Assembly: GCA_016788565.1 (NCBI GenBank) | Contig: JAEUSP010000128.1 | Coordinates: forward strand, 1-56,422 | DNA from: Chlorobiota bacterium | Lineage (GTDB): Bacteria > Bacteroidota > Ignavibacteria > OLB7 | Direction: 5' to 3' | Length of the DNA stretch: 56,422 nt | Program-made: the position numbers and the translations under genes | In this document: positions 21,090 to 54,712 of the stretch, in pieces | Layout: every line of letters starts with the position of its first letter | Position numbering within the stretch: the first letter of the stretch is position 1 | Notes under the pieces: generated by a model | Database searches by the model: none | Seen by the model: the letters and a program-made list of their open reading frames with translations, nothing else | What the model was told of the DNA's origin: nothing

Positions 21090-22022
21090 ATGATCCTCTC
21101 AACCATTGACATCGGGACAAACACCATTTTGATGGTGACGGCGGAGGCGCGGCCAGATGGGACAATCCAGATACTTGGCGATGAACACGCGATTGCCCGG
21201 CTGGGGAAAGGGGTGGATGCAAGCCGCACAATCGTGCCGGAAACGTTCAGCCGCATGGCCGATTTCTTGCTCCGCTACCGCCAAATTGCCGAATCGCACA
21301 ACGCCGAGCGAATCATTGCATTTGGAACTAGCGCGATTCGTGATGCCAGCAACCAGCAGGAATTTATTGCCCAGATGACGGAGCGAACCGGAATCACGAT
21401 TGAGGTGCTGAGCGGTAATGATGAAGCCCGCTGGACCTACCGCGGCGCGTTGTTCGGGATTGCTTCGGCGGCAAGCCAATCGCCCGCCGTTGCGGTGCTG
21501 GATATTGGCGGCGGCAGCACCGAAATCGCCGTTGGAAATGGAAGCCAACTTCAGAACAGCATCAGCCTGGATATTGGTGCGGTTCGAGCCGCAGAACGCT
21601 GTTTTTCAGGCTTGCCACCCTCGGCTGCCGAGCTTGCCAACGCCCGCAAGTTTGCTTGCGCAGAGTTAGCAAAGACGTTCGAACTTCCCCCGCAAACCAT
21701 TGCTGTTGGGGTGGCCGGAACGGTGACAACGCTGGGGGCAATGCACGCCGGGATGGAGCAATTCAACGCCGAAGCATTGAACGGGCGGTGGCTTCCCGCT
21801 GGCTTCATCCACTCCACAGCCGAACGGCTTGCCGGACTGACGTTGGCGGAAACCGCCGCAATCCCCCAAATCAACAGCGGACGTGCCGATATTATTCTGG
21901 CGGGGGCAATCATTTTGGATGAGTTTATGAGGCGGTATCAGCTCCCCGCGCTGATGGTCAGCACACGCGGTGTTCGCTACGGGGTGATGCTTCGCGAGTT
22001 TGGCCAGCAATCGCCACAATAG
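21090..22022 (+). CDS. ppx: Ppx/GppA-family exopolyphosphatase
   Basis: 310 residues, the length of the short Ppx/GppA class that lacks the C-terminal HD-like domain. The actin-like ATPase fold is clear: phosphate-1 loop STIDIGTNTILMVTAEA (residues 3-19), AFGTSAIRDASN, the catalytic region EVLSGNDEARWTYRGA, and phosphate-2 loop VLDIGGGSTEIAVG. A late GVAGTVTTLGAM motif is also present. The family hydrolyses inorganic polyphosphate and/or pppGpp in the cytoplasm. No Shine-Dalgarno precedes the ATG. Whether it is polyP- or pppGpp-specific cannot be read from the sequence. Confidence 0.9.
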   Translation: MILSTIDIGTNTILMVTAEARPDGTIQILGDEHAIARLGKGVDASRTIVPETFSRMADFLLRYRQIAESHNAERIIAFGTSAIRDASNQQEFIAQMTERTGITIEVLSGNDEARWTYRGALFGIASAASQSPAVAVLDIGGGSTEIAVGNGSQLQNSISLDIGAVRAAERCFSGLPPSAAELANARKFACAELAKTFELPPQTIAVGVAGTVTTLGAMHAGMEQFNAEALNGRWLPAGFIHSTAERLAGLTLAETAAIPQINSGRADIILAGAIILDEFMRRYQLPALMVSTRGVRYGVMLREFGQQSPQ

Positions 22023-22141
22023 CTTTCCGCTTCTGATCCCCCCACACCCGACAACCCGTTACCGCACGTTGCCTTGCACACTCGGCAAGGGGGGCGTAAG
22101 TTTGGCTCTTTGTTTTTCACACTATCCCTTTTCAGCAGTAA

Positions 22142-22257
22142 TATACTCCAAACAGAGTGGCTTGCGAAAAACTCAATCACTGTCATTCCCGCGAAAGCGG
22201 GAATCCATAGCGCACCTGGCTGAGTAGAGTTTCGCAAACCAATTTGCGCCGAGTATA
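22142..22257 (+). mobile_element. MITE-like element, copy A, containing a TCATTCCCGCGAAAGCGGGA hairpin
   Basis: A 116-bp unit bounded by TATACTC and GAGTATA. Its ends form imperfect terminal inverted repeats of about 27 bp (left ATACTC...GGCTTGCGAAA, right complement ATACTC...GGTTTGCGAAA). The centre carries the widespread bacterial hairpin GATTCCCGCTTTCGCGGGAA (as read on the minus strand). An inverted second copy is at 54508-54663. There is no coding capacity. It sits between ppx and lepA, so lepA transcription may start within it or run through it. Confidence 0.7.
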
Positions 22258-22342
22258 GAAGCTGCGCCAGCCCCCTGATGACCTTCCAAGTAGGAAGCAG
22301 TTGCTGGGGGATGAGCCAGCTTGGTTGCACACTTTTTGCACG

Positions 22343-24157
22343 ATGAACAACATCCGCAATTTCTGCATCATTGCCCACATAGATCATGGCAAATCCACGC
22401 TTGCCGACCGCCTGTTGGAAACCACCGGGCGCGTCACCGCACGCGAGATGACCATGAACCAGATTTTGGACGATAACCCGCTGGAGCAGGAGCGGGGGAT
22501 CACCATCAAGCTGCACGCAATCCAGATGGATTACCGCCGCCCCAACAGCACCGGCGACGCAGCCACCTACAGCCTGAACCTGATTGACACGCCGGGCCAC
22601 GTGGATTTCAGCTACGAAGTCTCCCGCTCGCTGGCCGCGTGCGAAGGTGCGCTGCTGGTTGTGGATGCAACGCAGGGGGTGGAAGCTCAAACCATTGCGA
22701 ATCTTTATCTGGCGATTGATGCTGGGTTGGAGATCATTCCGGTCATCAACAAAATTGATCTTCCTTCGGCCACCACCACGCTGGAAGGGGTGAAGCAGCA
22801 GGTGATTGATCTGCTGGGCTGCAAGGAGGAAGAGATGATCCTTGCTTCGGCAAAAGCCGGGATTGGGATCGAGGAAATTTTGGAGGCGATTGTGCAGCGC
22901 ATCCCGCCGCCACGCGGCAACCCCGATGCGCCGCTGCGTGCGCTGATCTTCGACTCACTGTTCGACAGCTACCGCGGAACCATCACCTACGTCCGTGTGG
23001 TGGATGGGACACTTCGGGAGGATGACAAAATCAAGTTCATGTACACCGGTGCCGAGTTCACGGTGGAGGAAGCGGGGATGCTGCACATCAGCCGCGTCAG
23101 AACAAAGGAGATTCCGTGCGGAGGGGTGGGATATTTCACTGCGGCAATCAAGGATGTGAAGGATACGAAAGTGGGGGACACCGTCACGCTAACCCGTGGC
23201 GGCGCCCAGGACCCCATCCCCGGTTTCCGCGAAGTGAAGCCGATGGTGTTTGCGGGCATCTACCCAGCCATGTCCGACGACTACGAGACGCTTCGCGACT
23301 CCCTCTCGAAACTCACCCTGAACGATTCGGCAATCACCTACGAGCCGGAGACCTCCACCGCGCTTGGGTTCGGTTTCCGCTGCGGTTTTTTGGGGATGCT
23401 TCACATGGAGATTGTGCAGGAGCGGTTGGAGCGTGAGTTCAACCAAACCATCGTCACCACCATTCCCAACGTGGAGTATCAGGTGACAAAAACCAACGGC
23501 GAGCAGGTGCTGGTTGATAACCCGGCGGACCTTCCCCCCCCTGGGCTGATTGATATTGTTGAGGAGCCGTACATCCGGGCGCAGATCATCTGCCCGGCGG
23601 AGTACATCGGCGTTGTCACCAAGCTCTGCATCGAGCGGCGCGGCATTTACAAGAACACCAGCTACCTCTCCTCCACCCGCGTAGATATCACGTTCGAGAT
23701 ACCGCTGGCCGAGGTGATTTTTGATTTTTACGACAAACTAAAATCCGCCTCGCGCGGGTATGCCTCGTTCGATTATGAGGTGATCGGGATGCGGGAAGGG
23801 GATTTGGTGAAGTTGGACATCCTGCTGAGCAACGAGCCGGTAGATGCGCTCTCGATTATTATCCACCGCGACAAGGCATATTTCTACGGGCGGAAACTTT
23901 GCGCAAAACTTCGCGAACTGATCCCGCGCCACATGTTCGAGATTCCGGTGCAGGCGGCGATTGGCGCAAAAGTGATTGCCCGCGAAACCATCAAAGCGCT
24001 TCGCAAGGACGTGCTGGCCAAATGCTACGGCGGCGACATCAGCCGCAAGCGGAAGCTGATTGAGAAGCAGAAAGAAGGGAAGAAGCGAATGAAGCAAGTG
24101 GGCGCGGTGGAAATTCCGCAGGAAGCATTTTTAGCTGTGCTCTCGATGGATGAATAA
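22343..24157 (+). CDS. lepA: Elongation factor 4 (LepA)
   Basis: 604 residues, normal length. Translational GTPase motifs: G1 [16 protein letters not shown]2 region QERGITIK, G3 [13 protein letters not shown]4 NKIDLPSA, G5 [12 protein letters not shown]. The LepA-specific C-terminal domain is present ([19 protein letters not shown]). EF4 binds ribosomes and promotes back-translocation or initiation-related remodelling under stress. ATG 22343 was chosen because it opens directly into the conserved [19 protein letters not shown]-terminus. It lies upstream of the signal peptidase pair, a lepA-lepB arrangement also known from other bacteria. Confidence 0.97.
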
Positions 24158-45154: not shown

Positions 45155-48100
45155 TTACTTCTGAATCGTCATCGCACGGGTCAGCGTTTGGCCGTTGAGC
45201 GTCAGGCGGTAGTGATAGACACCACTTGCCAAACCGCTCACATCCACCGCCACGCGGTGCGTTCCGGCTTCGCTGATGCCGCTGCGGAGTACGCTGATCT
45301 GTTTCCCGTTGGCATCGTACAACGCCAGCACGGCTTCCCCAGCTTCACGCAACTCGTAGGCAATCTCCACTCGGTCGCGTCCCGGGTTTGGCACGTTCTG
45401 CCACAGCTTCATCCCGTAGCTGAACTCCATCGCTTCCACCCCGCTTGTTCCCGAGCTTTCGCCGGTGACAGGCTCCAACTTGGTTGCGGTTCCGCCCAGC
45501 GTCACCGTTTGTGCGCCGTTGGTTGCGTTGCTGGCAATGGTCATCGTCGCGCTGCTGGTCCCCTTGTTCAGTGGACGGTAGGTGACCTCTAAATACTCAG
45601 TCTGTCCCGGTGCCAGCGTGGTCCGTGGGACGCGACCTAATGTGTAGTCAGTTGAGGTTGGGCCGCTGATTGTTGTTGTTCCCAGCTTCAGCGGGATTGT
45701 GCCGCTGTTGGTAATCATCACCGTTTGGCGGGCAACCTTCCCAACCGGAATCGTCACGTTGTCGAACAACGAGGCTGGGCTTACTGCCAGCGTCCGTGTT
45801 CCAGCTTCTCCTGTCAACGGCATCCGGATCACGTCGCCGGTGCTTAGCGTCAGCTCCAACATCGCCGTCCGTGGGCCTGGCTGGCTGGCTGGTGCTGGTG
45901 TGTGCGTCATCCAGAACTCCATTGCCGCGCCTGGCATCACCGCAAACGGGACCGCTGGCCACGGTTTGGCGGTGCTCATGGTGAACTCACCAGCATCGGG
46001 TCCGGTGATCTCAATTTTATTGACATAGATCAGCTCGTGCGTGGTGTTGTTCACCATTGCACTGGCGGTTGATTGGTCGGCAACCGCGCCACCAATAACT
46101 GCTGGCGGGAACATTGCGCCCAGCGATTCCAAGCCCGCCGACCCGACACCGGTCACATCCCAGTAGTAGGCGCCACGCTCGGTTAATCCTGGGGTGACAA
46201 TCGTTGAGTCGTTCGTCTGCATCCAGACTGTCACGCGGCGTGTTCCCGTGCGCGATGGCATGAACATGAACTTCACTTCGGACGAGGTTCCCGGCGGCAG
46301 TATCCACGTGTCGCTGTTCTGATCCACGGTTGCGTTGGCAAACGCCTCCACAATCTTGAACTCTGTTTTATCGCCGCTGCTGATGCGGAATTTTTTTCGG
46401 TCTATCCGAAGGTCGCAGGCTCCGGTATTGTAGATCGTCACGGTCTTCTCCGAGGAAGCTCCAATCATCACCGAGGGCATCGTCACCGGCTTCGGCAGCG
46501 TTGTGCCGTCAACAATGTCGGTTGGGCGCGCGCCAAGCCCGCGGCCGAACAACTCCATCACCAGCAGCCCATCACGTGTCACCCCGTATGGATCAACCCC
46601 AGTGAAGTTTGCCGCGTTGGTGTTCAGGAAGAACCGCGTGAACCGCTTGCCCGGCAGCTGCGGAACGAACGTCAGGTAGAACGTGCTGGTTCCGGCTTCT
46701 GGGGTTTCCAGAGGATACTGCGGGAAGAAGTTCAGCGGACGCGGAGCAACGCCCGGGTCGGTGGTGATGAAGTAATCTACCGTGGCGATTGGGTCGCCAA
46801 ATTGGTCACGCTCCAGCGGATACTTCGGCACACCTTGCCCGTAGGTGGTGTCCATCTCATAAGCACCCGTGACACCGAAAATGCGGAAGGTCCCTTCCCC
46901 CACATTCTTGACGGTGATCGGAATGGTGATCGCAGTCTCGCCAGCGCAGAGGTAGTCTTTCTTGAAGAACTCGCTGTTCGGCCCGATTTTATCGGCGCCA
47001 ACAAAGAACTCAGCACCGGCAGCGCGTGAGAAGGCGTAGAGAGTGTAGCTGCGGGTTCCGTCTTCGGTCGTCACGGTCAGCATTGCTGGCTGATAGCCAA
47101 CACCCAATGGTGAGAAGCGAATAACTGGAGTATAGCTTTGGGTTCCGTTCAGCGTGGTTGAGTAGCTGGTCACCAACTGCGAGGTCATCGGATGGACAAG
47201 GCGATACTGCCCGGTTGGGTCGGTAATCGTCACGGTTGTCATGAATCCCGAGTTGGTGTTGCCGTTGGTGTTCGCCACCATGAACGGGGTGAAGTCATCA
47301 AAGAAGAGGCGATCCACTTTCAGCCCTTTCATTAGGGTATCGCCGCTGGCCATGTTGGTGGTTCCACCTTCAGCAAGGTCGCCGGTGTAGCCCACGCGGG
47401 TGGTCCCCTGGGCAACTAAGGTGTAGCTGCGGGAGAATCCGTTGTTGTCTGTTACCAGCAGAGTAGCAGTACGGATGCCCAAGGCACTTGGAGTAAAATT
47501 AATTGTTGGGGTTAAGGTTTGGCCGTTAGCAATGGTGCCTGTTGACGGAGTAATGGAGTAATCAGCCGCATTGGTTCCGGAGATCGAGTACGTATAGGTG
47601 CGGCTTGCACAAGCAGGATAATTGCCAAGCCCTATGCTAATGTTAAATGGCTGGCGAGTACCGGTGTTGCCCCGCTGTACTTGGTAGCCCTTCAGCAAGC
47701 TATCGTTGTTTGCCATTGCTGCTGTGCCACCTTGCAGCGTGTTTCCGGCCACCGCAATGTTAGGATCGCAGGGGACGAAACGGTATAAGGTGTTTGCTGG
47801 CAACAGATGCTGCGTGGCTGCACCAGTAAGAAGGTTGATATTTGCTGGATCTGTGCCATTAGCAGTTAGGCCTAGCCCCGCTCCTTGAGCCGTTGGGGGT
47901 ATCCAGCGGAGATTATTTGTTGTGCCATTCGTTGTGGCCCCAATCGAAGCACTACGGCTTGCGGTTGTTGGCATGTTGATATAGACGAAATCTATCATAT
48001 CCGTCCTCTCATACAAGCGCACTTGGTACTCGTAAGGGATGACAGAAGTTCCGCTTGGATATGCTCCAATTCTCCACTGCACAGTTAGCACCCGGTTAGG

Positions 48101-48562
48101 AGCTGTACCGGTAACAAGGTAGGAGATTTTAGAGGTAGCGGTGCTGCTGGCATTGAGCGTCATGTGCTGGTCATCCCACCATGCAGCAAGAACTGGATTG
48201 CTGGTTGTGCTTCCAAGGTTGTTGCTGAAAGTTGAGTTGATATTGACGGTTCCGCTGTTTCCAAGCCCCATCATACCATTAACGCCAGCGCGGAATTGGG
48301 TGTAGCTTGTGCCATCCAACTTGAATGTGAAGCCAATATCTTTGATTTGGGAGTACCCATCATCAATGTTCAGGGAGCCACTACCATCCATCGTTAAGGT
48401 AGTGTCCGATGTCATATCGGTCCCAGGGCCAGTACCGAACTGGTAATAGTAGTTGCTGGCGAACGTACTTTTTGCTGCTTGTGTTCCCCCAACAAAAAGC
48501 ATTGCCACCGCAGCCATCATCCATCCAATGTGCTGCAATCGTCGCAGTAGTGTTGTTTGCAT
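45155..48562 (-). CDS. Secreted ASH surface protein with T9SS sorting domain (paralogue of 482-3826)
   Basis: 1135 residues, with the strongest Shine-Dalgarno in the window (AGAGGAGGTG, 4 nt from GGAGG to ATG). Signal peptide about 1-29 (MAAVAMLFVGGTQA end). The nidogen-like entry domain (GVNGMMGLGN) is divergent from the 482-3826 protein. Downstream they align throughout: PGKRFTRFFLNTNAANFTG versus PGKRFARMFVYTNGANFTG, and nearly identical ASH units (ASLFDNVTIPVGKVARQTVM; YTLGRVPRTTLAPGQTEY). The T9SS domain runs from LWQNVPNPGRDRVEIAYEL to TLTRAMTIQK. It is predicted to be surface-exposed. The 5' third is less GC-rich than the rest, as in its paralogue. Confidence 0.88.
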   Translation of the reverse strand: MQTTLLRRLQHIGWMMAAVAMLFVGGTQAAKSTFASNYYYQFGTGPGTDMTSDTTLTMDGSGSLNIDDGYSQIKDIGFTFKLDGTSYTQFRAGVNGMMGLGNSGTVNINSTFSNNLGSTTSNPVLAAWWDDQHMTLNASSTATSKISYLVTGTAPNRVLTVQWRIGAYPSGTSVIPYEYQVRLYERTDMIDFVYINMPTTASRSASIGATTNGTTNNLRWIPPTAQGAGLGLTANGTDPANINLLTGAATQHLLPANTLYRFVPCDPNIAVAGNTLQGGTAAMANNDSLLKGYQVQRGNTGTRQPFNISIGLGNYPACASRTYTYSISGTNAADYSITPSTGTIANGQTLTPTINFTPSALGIRTATLLVTDNNGFSRSYTLVAQGTTRVGYTGDLAEGGTTNMASGDTLMKGLKVDRLFFDDFTPFMVANTNGNTNSGFMTTVTITDPTGQYRLVHPMTSQLVTSYSTTLNGTQSYTPVIRFSPLGVGYQPAMLTVTTEDGTRSYTLYAFSRAAGAEFFVGADKIGPNSEFFKKDYLCAGETAITIPITVKNVGEGTFRIFGVTGAYEMDTTYGQGVPKYPLERDQFGDPIATVDYFITTDPGVAPRPLNFFPQYPLETPEAGTSTFYLTFVPQLPGKRFTRFFLNTNAANFTGVDPYGVTRDGLLVMELFGRGLGARPTDIVDGTTLPKPVTMPSVMIGASSEKTVTIYNTGACDLRIDRKKFRISSGDKTEFKIVEAFANATVDQNSDTWILPPGTSSEVKFMFMPSRTGTRRVTVWMQTNDSTIVTPGLTERGAYYWDVTGVGSAGLESLGAMFPPAVIGGAVADQSTASAMVNNTTHELIYVNKIEITGPDAGEFTMSTAKPWPAVPFAVMPGAAMEFWMTHTPAPASQPGPRTAMLELTLSTGDVIRMPLTGEAGTRTLAVSPASLFDNVTIPVGKVARQTVMITNSGTIPLKLGTTTISGPTSTDYTLGRVPRTTLAPGQTEYLEVTYRPLNKGTSSATMTIASNATNGAQTVTLGGTATKLEPVTGESSGTSGVEAMEFSYGMKLWQNVPNPGRDRVEIAYELREAGEAVLALYDANGKQISVLRSGISEAGTHRVAVDVSGLASGVYHYRLTLNGQTLTRAMTIQK

Positions 48563-50135: not shown

Positions 50136-50193
50136 CAGCGGAGGTAACCCTCCGCTCATGCTGAGCTTCGTCGAAGTATGAGTGGAGCCACCG
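50136..50193 (-). repeat. REP-like intergenic palindrome, copy 5 (inverted)
   Basis: AGCGGAGGTAACCCTCCGCT, then CATGCTGAGCTTCGTCGAAG and TATGAGTGGAGCCACCGG. Reverse complement of the unit at 298, with an extra inner CGGAGG/CCTCCG stem at its end. Confidence 0.75.
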
Positions 50194-50257
50194 GAATGTC
50201 GAATGCCAAATGTCGAATGTCGAATTGAAGAGGGTGATGGCAGTTCCTGCGAATCCC

Positions 50258-50305
50258 GCTCTCCGCTCATGCTGAAGCTCCGTTGAAGTATGAGCGGAGC
50301 CACCG
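50258..50305 (-). repeat. REP-like intergenic palindrome, copy 6 (inverted)
   Basis: CTCTCCGCTCATGCTGAAGC, then CCGTTGAAGTATGAGCGGAGCC. It is 65 bp from copy 5 in the same orientation, forming a REP doublet. Downstream, 50333-50394 is C-rich debris of CCCCGATCCCCG repeats up to the stop of the next gene. Confidence 0.75.
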
Positions 50306-50390
50306 GAACAAGCAAGGTTCAAAACATCCCTCCCCGATCCCCGACGACCCTCCTCCGCCCCCCGCCCCCCGATCCCCGCCCCCCGATCCC

Positions 50391-54043: not shown

Positions 54044-54088
54044 AGGCTGATCTCCACGTAGCGCACGAAGTATGAGCGGAGCCACCGA
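54044..54088 (-). repeat. REP-like palindrome, copy 7 (degenerate, inverted)
   Basis: AGGCTGATCTCCACGTAGCG, then CACGAAGTATGAGCGGAGCC and ACCGA. Only the 3' part (GAAGTATGAGCGGAGCCACCG) is well preserved; the CTCAT arm is lost. Confidence 0.55.
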
Positions 54089-54295: not shown

Positions 54296-54370
54296 AGAGC
54301 GGAGGTCGGCGAACGTCGCCCCCCGCTCATGTTGAAGCTCCATCGAAGTATGAGCGTGAGCTACCGAACC
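54296..54370 (-). repeat. REP-like palindrome, copy 8 (inverted)
   Basis: AGAGCGGAGGTCGGCGAACG, then TCGCCCCCCGCTCATGTTGA, then AGCTCCATCGAAGTATGAGC. The stem CCGCTCAT/ATGAGCG is intact, and it carries the same AGAGCGGAGG start as the hairpin at 50045. Confidence 0.7.
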
Positions 54371-54507
54371 GAGGAGTTGCCACGAATAAGCAAGAACGAA
54401 GAAGCCGACCTCAGCGATGTACAACTTTCTCGCCGCCATTCTTCAAATTCCCTCACCCACTGCTTGGCTTGCAGTGAAATCGGGTGTAGATTGCTTGGGG
54501 GAGTTGA

Positions 54508-54663
54508 TATACTCGGCGCAAATTGGTTTGCGAAATTCTACTCAGCCAGGTGTGCTATGGATACGCTGCGCAGGCCTTCGGCTCCCGCTTTCGCCCCGAC
54601 TGGTCGGGGTAAACAGGGAATGACAGTAACGAGGTTCTTGCAAACCACTTTCATTGGAGTATA
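54508..54663 (-). mobile_element. MITE-like element, copy B (inverted, with two inner insertions)
   Basis: Bounded by TATACTC and GAGTATA like copy A. The 5' 60 bp (CGCAAATTGGTTTGCGAAAT, then TCTACTCAGCCAGGTGTGCT) match the inverse of copy A almost base for base, as does the far end. The central hairpin is interrupted by about 20-bp insertions on each side of TCCCGCTTTCGC, one carrying its own CCCCGACTGGTCGGGG stem. It ends 50 bp upstream of the LamG gene start. Confidence 0.7.
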
Positions 54664-54712
54664 CTAACAACAATGCTCTTCATCAGTTCCTCCCACGCTG
54701 TATAACAACGCT

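Follow-up and report, generated by a model that had tools for sequence, protein, structure and literature searches.

A family of probable IS630/Tc1-type MITEs with a CGTC-1 REP core in a Chlorobiota genome

The window, meaning the whole stretch of DNA analysed here (56,422 nucleotides; contig C65 of a 4.58-Mb genome assembly, G000, in 137 contigs), contains two copies of a short repeated element, each lying in the 5′ region of a gene, as had been proposed from the sequence alone. The ATG of lepA (22343; TIGR01393, E=3e-290) lies 85 bp beyond the end of copy 1, and that of a gene for a Laminin_G_3 protein (54713) lies 49 bp beyond the end of copy 2. The sequence-only reading had described a 116-bp element and an inverted 156-bp copy, and both were recovered where it had placed them. 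The features are:

22142-22257, + strand: MITE copy 1 with both TA duplications, 116 bp (element proper 22144-22255; empty orthologous site in sister genome G001)
22142-22169, + strand: left terminal inverted repeat of copy 1, 28 nt including TA
22181-22207, + strand: CGTC-1 type REP core of copy 1 (tag TGTC, 8-bp stem ATTCCCGC, loop GAAA, stem GCGGGAAT, tail CCA)
22230-22257, - strand: right terminal inverted repeat of copy 1, 28-nt end
54508-54663, - strand: MITE copy 2, in opposite orientation, with both TA duplications, 156 bp
54508-54535, + strand: right terminal inverted repeat of copy 2
54558-54625, - strand: REP core of copy 2, split by the nested hairpin modules B (TGTTTACCCCGACCAGTCGGGG) and C (GCCGAAGGCCTGCGCAGCGT)
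54636-54663, - strand: left terminal inverted repeat of copy 2

Both copies carry TATACTC...GAGTATA ends at these coordinates. The imperfect terminal inverted repeats (TIRs) had been estimated at about 27 bp; the 28-nt ends of the family consensus match each other at 22 of 28 positions. The core had been called a widespread hairpin (GATTCCCGCTTTCGCGGGAA); it does correspond to a CGTC-1 REP, but only copy 1 has an uninterrupted hairpin. On the opposite strand, copy 2 represents the same element, lengthened (156 vs 116 bp) by two additional palindromes of ~20 bp within its hairpin. Copy 1 (22142-22257) is a MITE, from a family that is short (116 bp), lacks a transposase gene and is present in many copies. 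RNA folding of the copy 1 hairpin is favourable on both strands (z -4.5 and -5.1), as is expected of any element with such repeats. An Rfam search of 22000-22400 gave one match, in lepA and far under the gathering score, which was taken as chance, and no terminator-like site was seen in either stretch scanned. Sigma-70-like matches occur at the ends of both copies (9/12, for a consensus that may not be the host's); in copy 2 the left repeat and its flank form TTGCAA-16-TATACT (54638-54665), a consensus match only, directed toward the Laminin_G_3 gene. A promoter reading is not claimed, since the host may use other consensus sequences.

The element is abundant in its own genome. A BLAST search, in which 40 of 182 initial candidates were scored, gave 40 near-full copies of 96-100% identity and one partial copy; among those scored, one near-full copy besides the window's own is 100% identical. 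An exact search for the end pattern TATACTCNNNNNNANNNNGNTTGCGAA gave 119 matches in the genome and none for the reversed control, which excludes chance as the origin of the pattern. Altogether, 112 TIR pairs were found in 104 loci of the genome and in the window, 77 of them exactly 116 bp long, nine of 115 bp and the others of 101-314 bp; one of the 112, the 314-bp pair at L099:3768-4081, encloses another counted pair. The comparison of genomic copies that the sequence-only reading had called for thus yielded at least 100 copies with the same ends. Beyond this genome, the end pattern is restricted to 4 of the 391 genomes of the class (G000, G001, G004 and G218), so that the element comes close to being a speciality of its genus. 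In the class-wide search there were 218 end-pattern matches in G000 and 52 in the sister genome G001, while G004, from another genus of the same family, has one 104-bp element with a different core. The single end match in G218 lies inside an apparent gene and was taken as chance. A search of a plasmid collection gave one weak partial match only, in Photobacterium. As to the host itself, the window encodes a type IX secretion sorting domain at 45158-48562 (TIGR04183, E=2e-8), and the sister MAG (isolate SJ842) is titled Armatimonadetes, which makes the placement of the host worth checking.

Empty counterparts were sought by joining the 18 bases on each side of elements with intact TATAC/GTATA borders, allowing spacers of 0-8 nt and at most 8 mismatches. 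A 2-nt gap fits best in 18 of the 19 elements with a recognisable empty counterpart; the remaining one fits with 1 nt, beside a local indel. The unit that inserts is therefore TACTC...GAGTA, and the TA outside it is target sequence duplicated on insertion. This refines the earlier description of TA/TA as the outermost part of the element: the borders are present, but they belong to the target, and the element proper of copy 1 spans 22144-22255. The two letters in the gap are TA in nine of the 18 empty sites, CA in four, TG in three, TT in one and GT in one; hence nine are not TA, eight of which (CA, TG, TT) are one substitution away from it and one (GT) is not. An orthologous empty site is available for copy 1. 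Upstream of lepA, G001 aligns at 87-89% and lacks the element, reading CAGCAGTGATTGAAGC where the own genome reads CAGCAGTAA[element]TAGAAGC, and the 2-nt target is TT, one substitution from TA. For copy 2, no orthologous flank was found in G001, where its neighbourhood is not conserved. The empty sites that had been suggested as a check are therefore present, both in the 18 of 19 counterparts and before lepA.

A candidate source of transposase lies at the contig edges of the same genome. Contigs C10, C47 and C63 all start with one identical 141-bp sequence, comprising the end TATACTCCAAATAAATTGGAATGCGAAA and then the start of an ORF (MELPLSDELRQ...) that is cut by the contig end. Contigs C35, C36, C78 and C105 start at the opposite IS end (TATACTCAAACCAGATTGG / TATACTCAAACCAGATTGGATTGCAAGG), preceded by the transposase C-terminus KFREAILNFFKNIGNYRTELESLLTLNFHIP; a truncated copy on C30 adds SVNLLERLWKFMRKKVIDAEYYTTKEKFREAILNFF, with a match to NF033545 (transpos_IS630) at 262-298 of 299 (E=8e-5). 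The left and right pieces, none of which spans both ends, are taken as one element by assumption, and the missing interior lies between TACTCCAAATAAATTGG... and ...CCAATCTGGTTTGAGTA. In a profile search, PF13358 (DDE_3) had no match in G000 or G001, and no complete IS630 gene is assembled in G000; the absence of the profile is explained by the contig edges, at which both assemblies break off inside the element and so leave out its interior. The partner is probably intact, DDE catalytic domain included. The search for a full-length transposon with the same ends has thus produced an IS630-family element at contig edges, with its middle unassembled.

The 28-nt MITE ends are 19-23/28 identical to the IS ends of the own genome, an identity reached by 0 or 1 of 20,000 shuffles; the consensus left end matches the IS left end at 23/28 positions and the left end of one MITE (L135) does so at 27/28. 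Past the terminal ~28 bp, the MITE arms have no resemblance to the IS; the MITE is therefore not simply an internally deleted form of the observed IS. The sister genome has the same IS element at three contig edges and a second, related one, with ends TATACTCGAGTGCTTTCAGATTGCGAAA and TATACTCACGTGCTTTGAGTTTGCGAAA, at many more (12 left-end and 17 right-end matches, all at 95-100% identity). The longest piece of the latter encodes an N-terminal half with HTH_29 and HTH_33 (NF033545, E=2e-18). Elements of ~370 bp with ends of this sister-IS type, and with the core palindromes GCCCTGAAGGGGC and CAGGGCAACGCCCTGG, occur in the sister genome at L114 675-1047 and L190 486-854; they constitute another MITE family of this type. 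The IS630 genes of G002-G004 were rejected as partners, as no TATACTC-type end pair surrounds the nine loci examined.

Most MITE copies are intergenic. With a codon-usage score trained on long ORFs of the window, between 0 and 5 of 107 insertion points looked coding-like as the threshold was varied (the flanks of five of the 112 pairs were too short to score); at the setting with 5/107, the same was true of 473/600 random TA sites of the window and 184/228 TA sites of the flanks. Another palindromic dispersed repeat (CTCCGCTCATGCTGAAGC...GAAGTATGAGCGGAGCCACCG) occurs in the window at 50147-50316, 54067-54087 and 54300-54380, and also at 298, 6338, 9581 and 33459. There are seven window matches to its right part and dozens of sister-genome matches to such stretches, and several MITEs are inserted in clusters of this repeat.

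The core of the MITE, TGTC-ATTCCCGC-GAAA-GCGGGAAT-CCA, has every part of the published definition of a CGTC-1 REP, in the part of that report available, namely a CGTC or TGTC tag, an 8-bp stem beginning with AT, a 4-nt loop and a CCA tail (PMC3733652). The same part of the report describes these REPs as occurring mostly in HH dimers and without a dedicated transposase, a tendency rather than a strict criterion (PMC3733652); here the REP departs from it, being single and inside a MITE in 98 of the 100 listed. The REP pattern GTCATTCCCGCNNNNGCGGGAATCC is present in 12 of the 17 genomes searched: it occurs 112 times in G000, three times in G001 and not at all in G002-G004, and 33 times in G049 and 20 times in G031, both without MITE ends. 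For 96 of the 100 listed (of 112 in the own genome), both MITE ends lie within 80 bp; two more have a single end and two have neither. The MITE copies therefore carry nearly all the CGTC-1 REPs of this genome, and carriage by the MITE is probably how the REP was amplified in it, after presumably entering an older MITE of the genus. Two REPs are not part of a MITE and stand in a local tandem array (C80:59201-59351). Elsewhere in the class, the REP stands alone, in inverted pairs or in repeats at five of six loci; at the sixth (L008, genome G008, near 1505) a CGTC-type REP is read in frame as part of an ORF whose tail resembles a sorting domain (...KFDIPMDSRFRGNDNVLLKVYDLLGREV...). REPs in frame in ORFs have been reported for the Rickettsia RPEs.

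The REP is the least variable part of the element. Over it, 29 consecutive columns are free of substitutions in the 77 copies of 116 bp, in which the arms vary widely, and 51 rare alleles fall in the 87 columns outside these; 17 rare alleles were expected in the core and none was observed (P 4e-7), the limits of these 29 columns having been drawn after the invariant columns were seen, with the published 27-nt REP inside them. The 66 copies that are discoverable by their ends alone give a similar picture, with no rare allele in the core vs 33 elsewhere (P 7.5e-5). Among the nine copies of 115 bp, one has a change in the stem and two have a change just past the tail. Altered cores are also found in older related elements (L044, L081, L140, L142 and L117).

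In addition, the modules B and C interrupt the REP core at two fixed places. These mini-hairpins (CCCCGACCAGTCGGGG and GCCGAAGGCCTGCGAAGCG) are seen in the window (54558-54625) and in L038, L080, L097, L102, L046, L048 and L069. Arm and core could be separated in 105 of the 112 pairs, and L038, whose C module is altered, is counted as B+C. On that basis, all three main left-arm families include elements with plain, with C and with B+C cores, and B alone is seen in two of them. It follows that copies either exchange parts or repeatedly acquire the same modules. In an LD test for recombination centred on the REP, four-gamete violations are common everywhere (26/36 left-left, 39/55 right-right and 79/99 left-right). 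Six elements with MITE ends hold a different, longer CGTC-tagged palindrome in place of the REP, and in L004 and L019 this longer palindrome is interrupted by a similar CCCCGAC..GTCGGGG module. Module B had no match in viral contigs.

Taken together, both window copies very probably (about 0.94, judged from sequence comparison) are members of a single non-autonomous MITE family of the IS630/Tc1 type, moved by a resident IS630-family transposase. The IS-like TIRs (15-30 bp), TA duplication, IS630-encoding partner and short multi-copy form that mark membership of this class were all found. A resident IS630-family element with similar ~28-bp ends would supply the transposase, which would excise the MITE at TACTC...GAGTA; the excised MITE would be joined into a TA, thereby duplicating it, and insertions between genes would survive. 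Of this, the copy number, ends, TA duplication, empty sites, ends shared with a multi-copy IS630 element and intergenic location are direct observations. The non-autonomous nature and IS630/Tc1-type mobilisation suggested earlier thus appear well supported by the copies, the empty sites and the IS630 partner. Alternatively, the family could be a hairpin repeat of the REP/BIME type that recombination or a REP-associated tyrosine transposase has spread, with the outer sequence incidental: its core is a canonical CGTC-1 REP, and in other genomes of the class this REP occurs without MITE ends. This is very improbable, given that nearly every listed REP of the own genome is flanked by MITE ends and that the inserted unit is bounded by the TIRs and produces a TA duplication, so that the empty sites largely refute it. 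Mobilisation by another TA-targeting transposase (e.g., of the IS5 family), the likeness to IS630 ends being due to chance, has likewise very little probability. The assembly lacks a complete IS630 gene, as this alternative would have it, but the end similarity is far above that of shuffled sequences, the TATACTC border is common to both elements, and several copies of the IS reside in the same genome.

Whatever moved the MITE, the invariant core can be read in two ways. The REP may be a neutral passenger, free of substitutions simply because the copies arose in a very recent burst; this is possible, if short of an even chance. The copies are indeed young (96-100% identical) and the older related elements have changed cores; on the other side stands the contrast between the core and the remaining 87 columns, despite the history that the core shares with its flanking columns. 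A bolder and rather unlikely reading is that CGTC REPs spread inside IS630-type MITEs and are kept intact copy by copy, in which case the MITE would serve as the vehicle of a maintained module, the REP, and not of a passenger; hairpin-guided gene conversion, an aid to transposition or host selection would then be the routes of maintenance.

Several systems are comparable to the REP-bearing MITE, as far as the available parts of the reports go. It shares with the CGTC-1 REPs, including dRS3 of Neisseria and RPE-6 of Rickettsia, the TGTC/CGTC tag, the AT-starting 8-bp stem, the 4-nt loop and the CCA; unlike those reported, mostly HH dimers, it holds a single REP at a fixed place in an IS630-type MITE (PMC3733652). 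GTAG-15 dimers of Anabaena variabilis lie in TATAGGA...TCCTATA, and CGTC-1 dimers of Halothiobacillus neapolitanus lie inside longer palindromes (PMC3733652). These cases resemble the present one in having a REP within a longer inverted repeat, with TATA borders in A. variabilis, but the available text gives no transposase, target duplication or empty site for them, which are shown or inferred for this MITE (PMC3733652). The open-licence literature searched, including the part of PMC4853749 available, yielded no description of an IS630 MITE with a CGTC REP in it. What is new is therefore that the MITE core is a CGTC-1 REP of the dRS3 kind, a repeat family reported, in the part of the source available, without a dedicated transposase (PMC3733652). 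This offers a concrete vehicle for a hairpin repeat that is found across bacterial phyla and whose mover is, according to that part of the source, an open question (PMC3733652). Moreover, in ~100 young copies the hairpin is free of substitutions, yet it is repeatedly interrupted by two ready-made mini-hairpins in all three main arm families. With this data set, one can test directly whether the REP is maintained by gene conversion, transposition or selection.

MITEs of the IS630 type are an already known kind of element. The mechanism assumed here is that of ISY100, an IS630/Tc1 element of Synechocystis which also targets and duplicates TA but which, unlike the MITE, is autonomous and has been tested in vitro, according to the available part of its description (PMC2170065). 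The nearest parallel is RUP of Streptococcus pneumoniae (~107 bp, 108 copies), for which IS630-Spn1 is the proposed mover; both are intergenic, with ends resembling those of a resident IS630 element and a TA target (PMC2229807). They differ in sequence and host, the CGTC REP core is not mentioned for RUP in the available part of the report (PMC2229807), and nested hairpin modules and shuffling between copies are seen as well in the present family. The MITE family is thus a close counterpart of the pneumococcal RUP/IS630-Spn1 pair, ordinary in kind.
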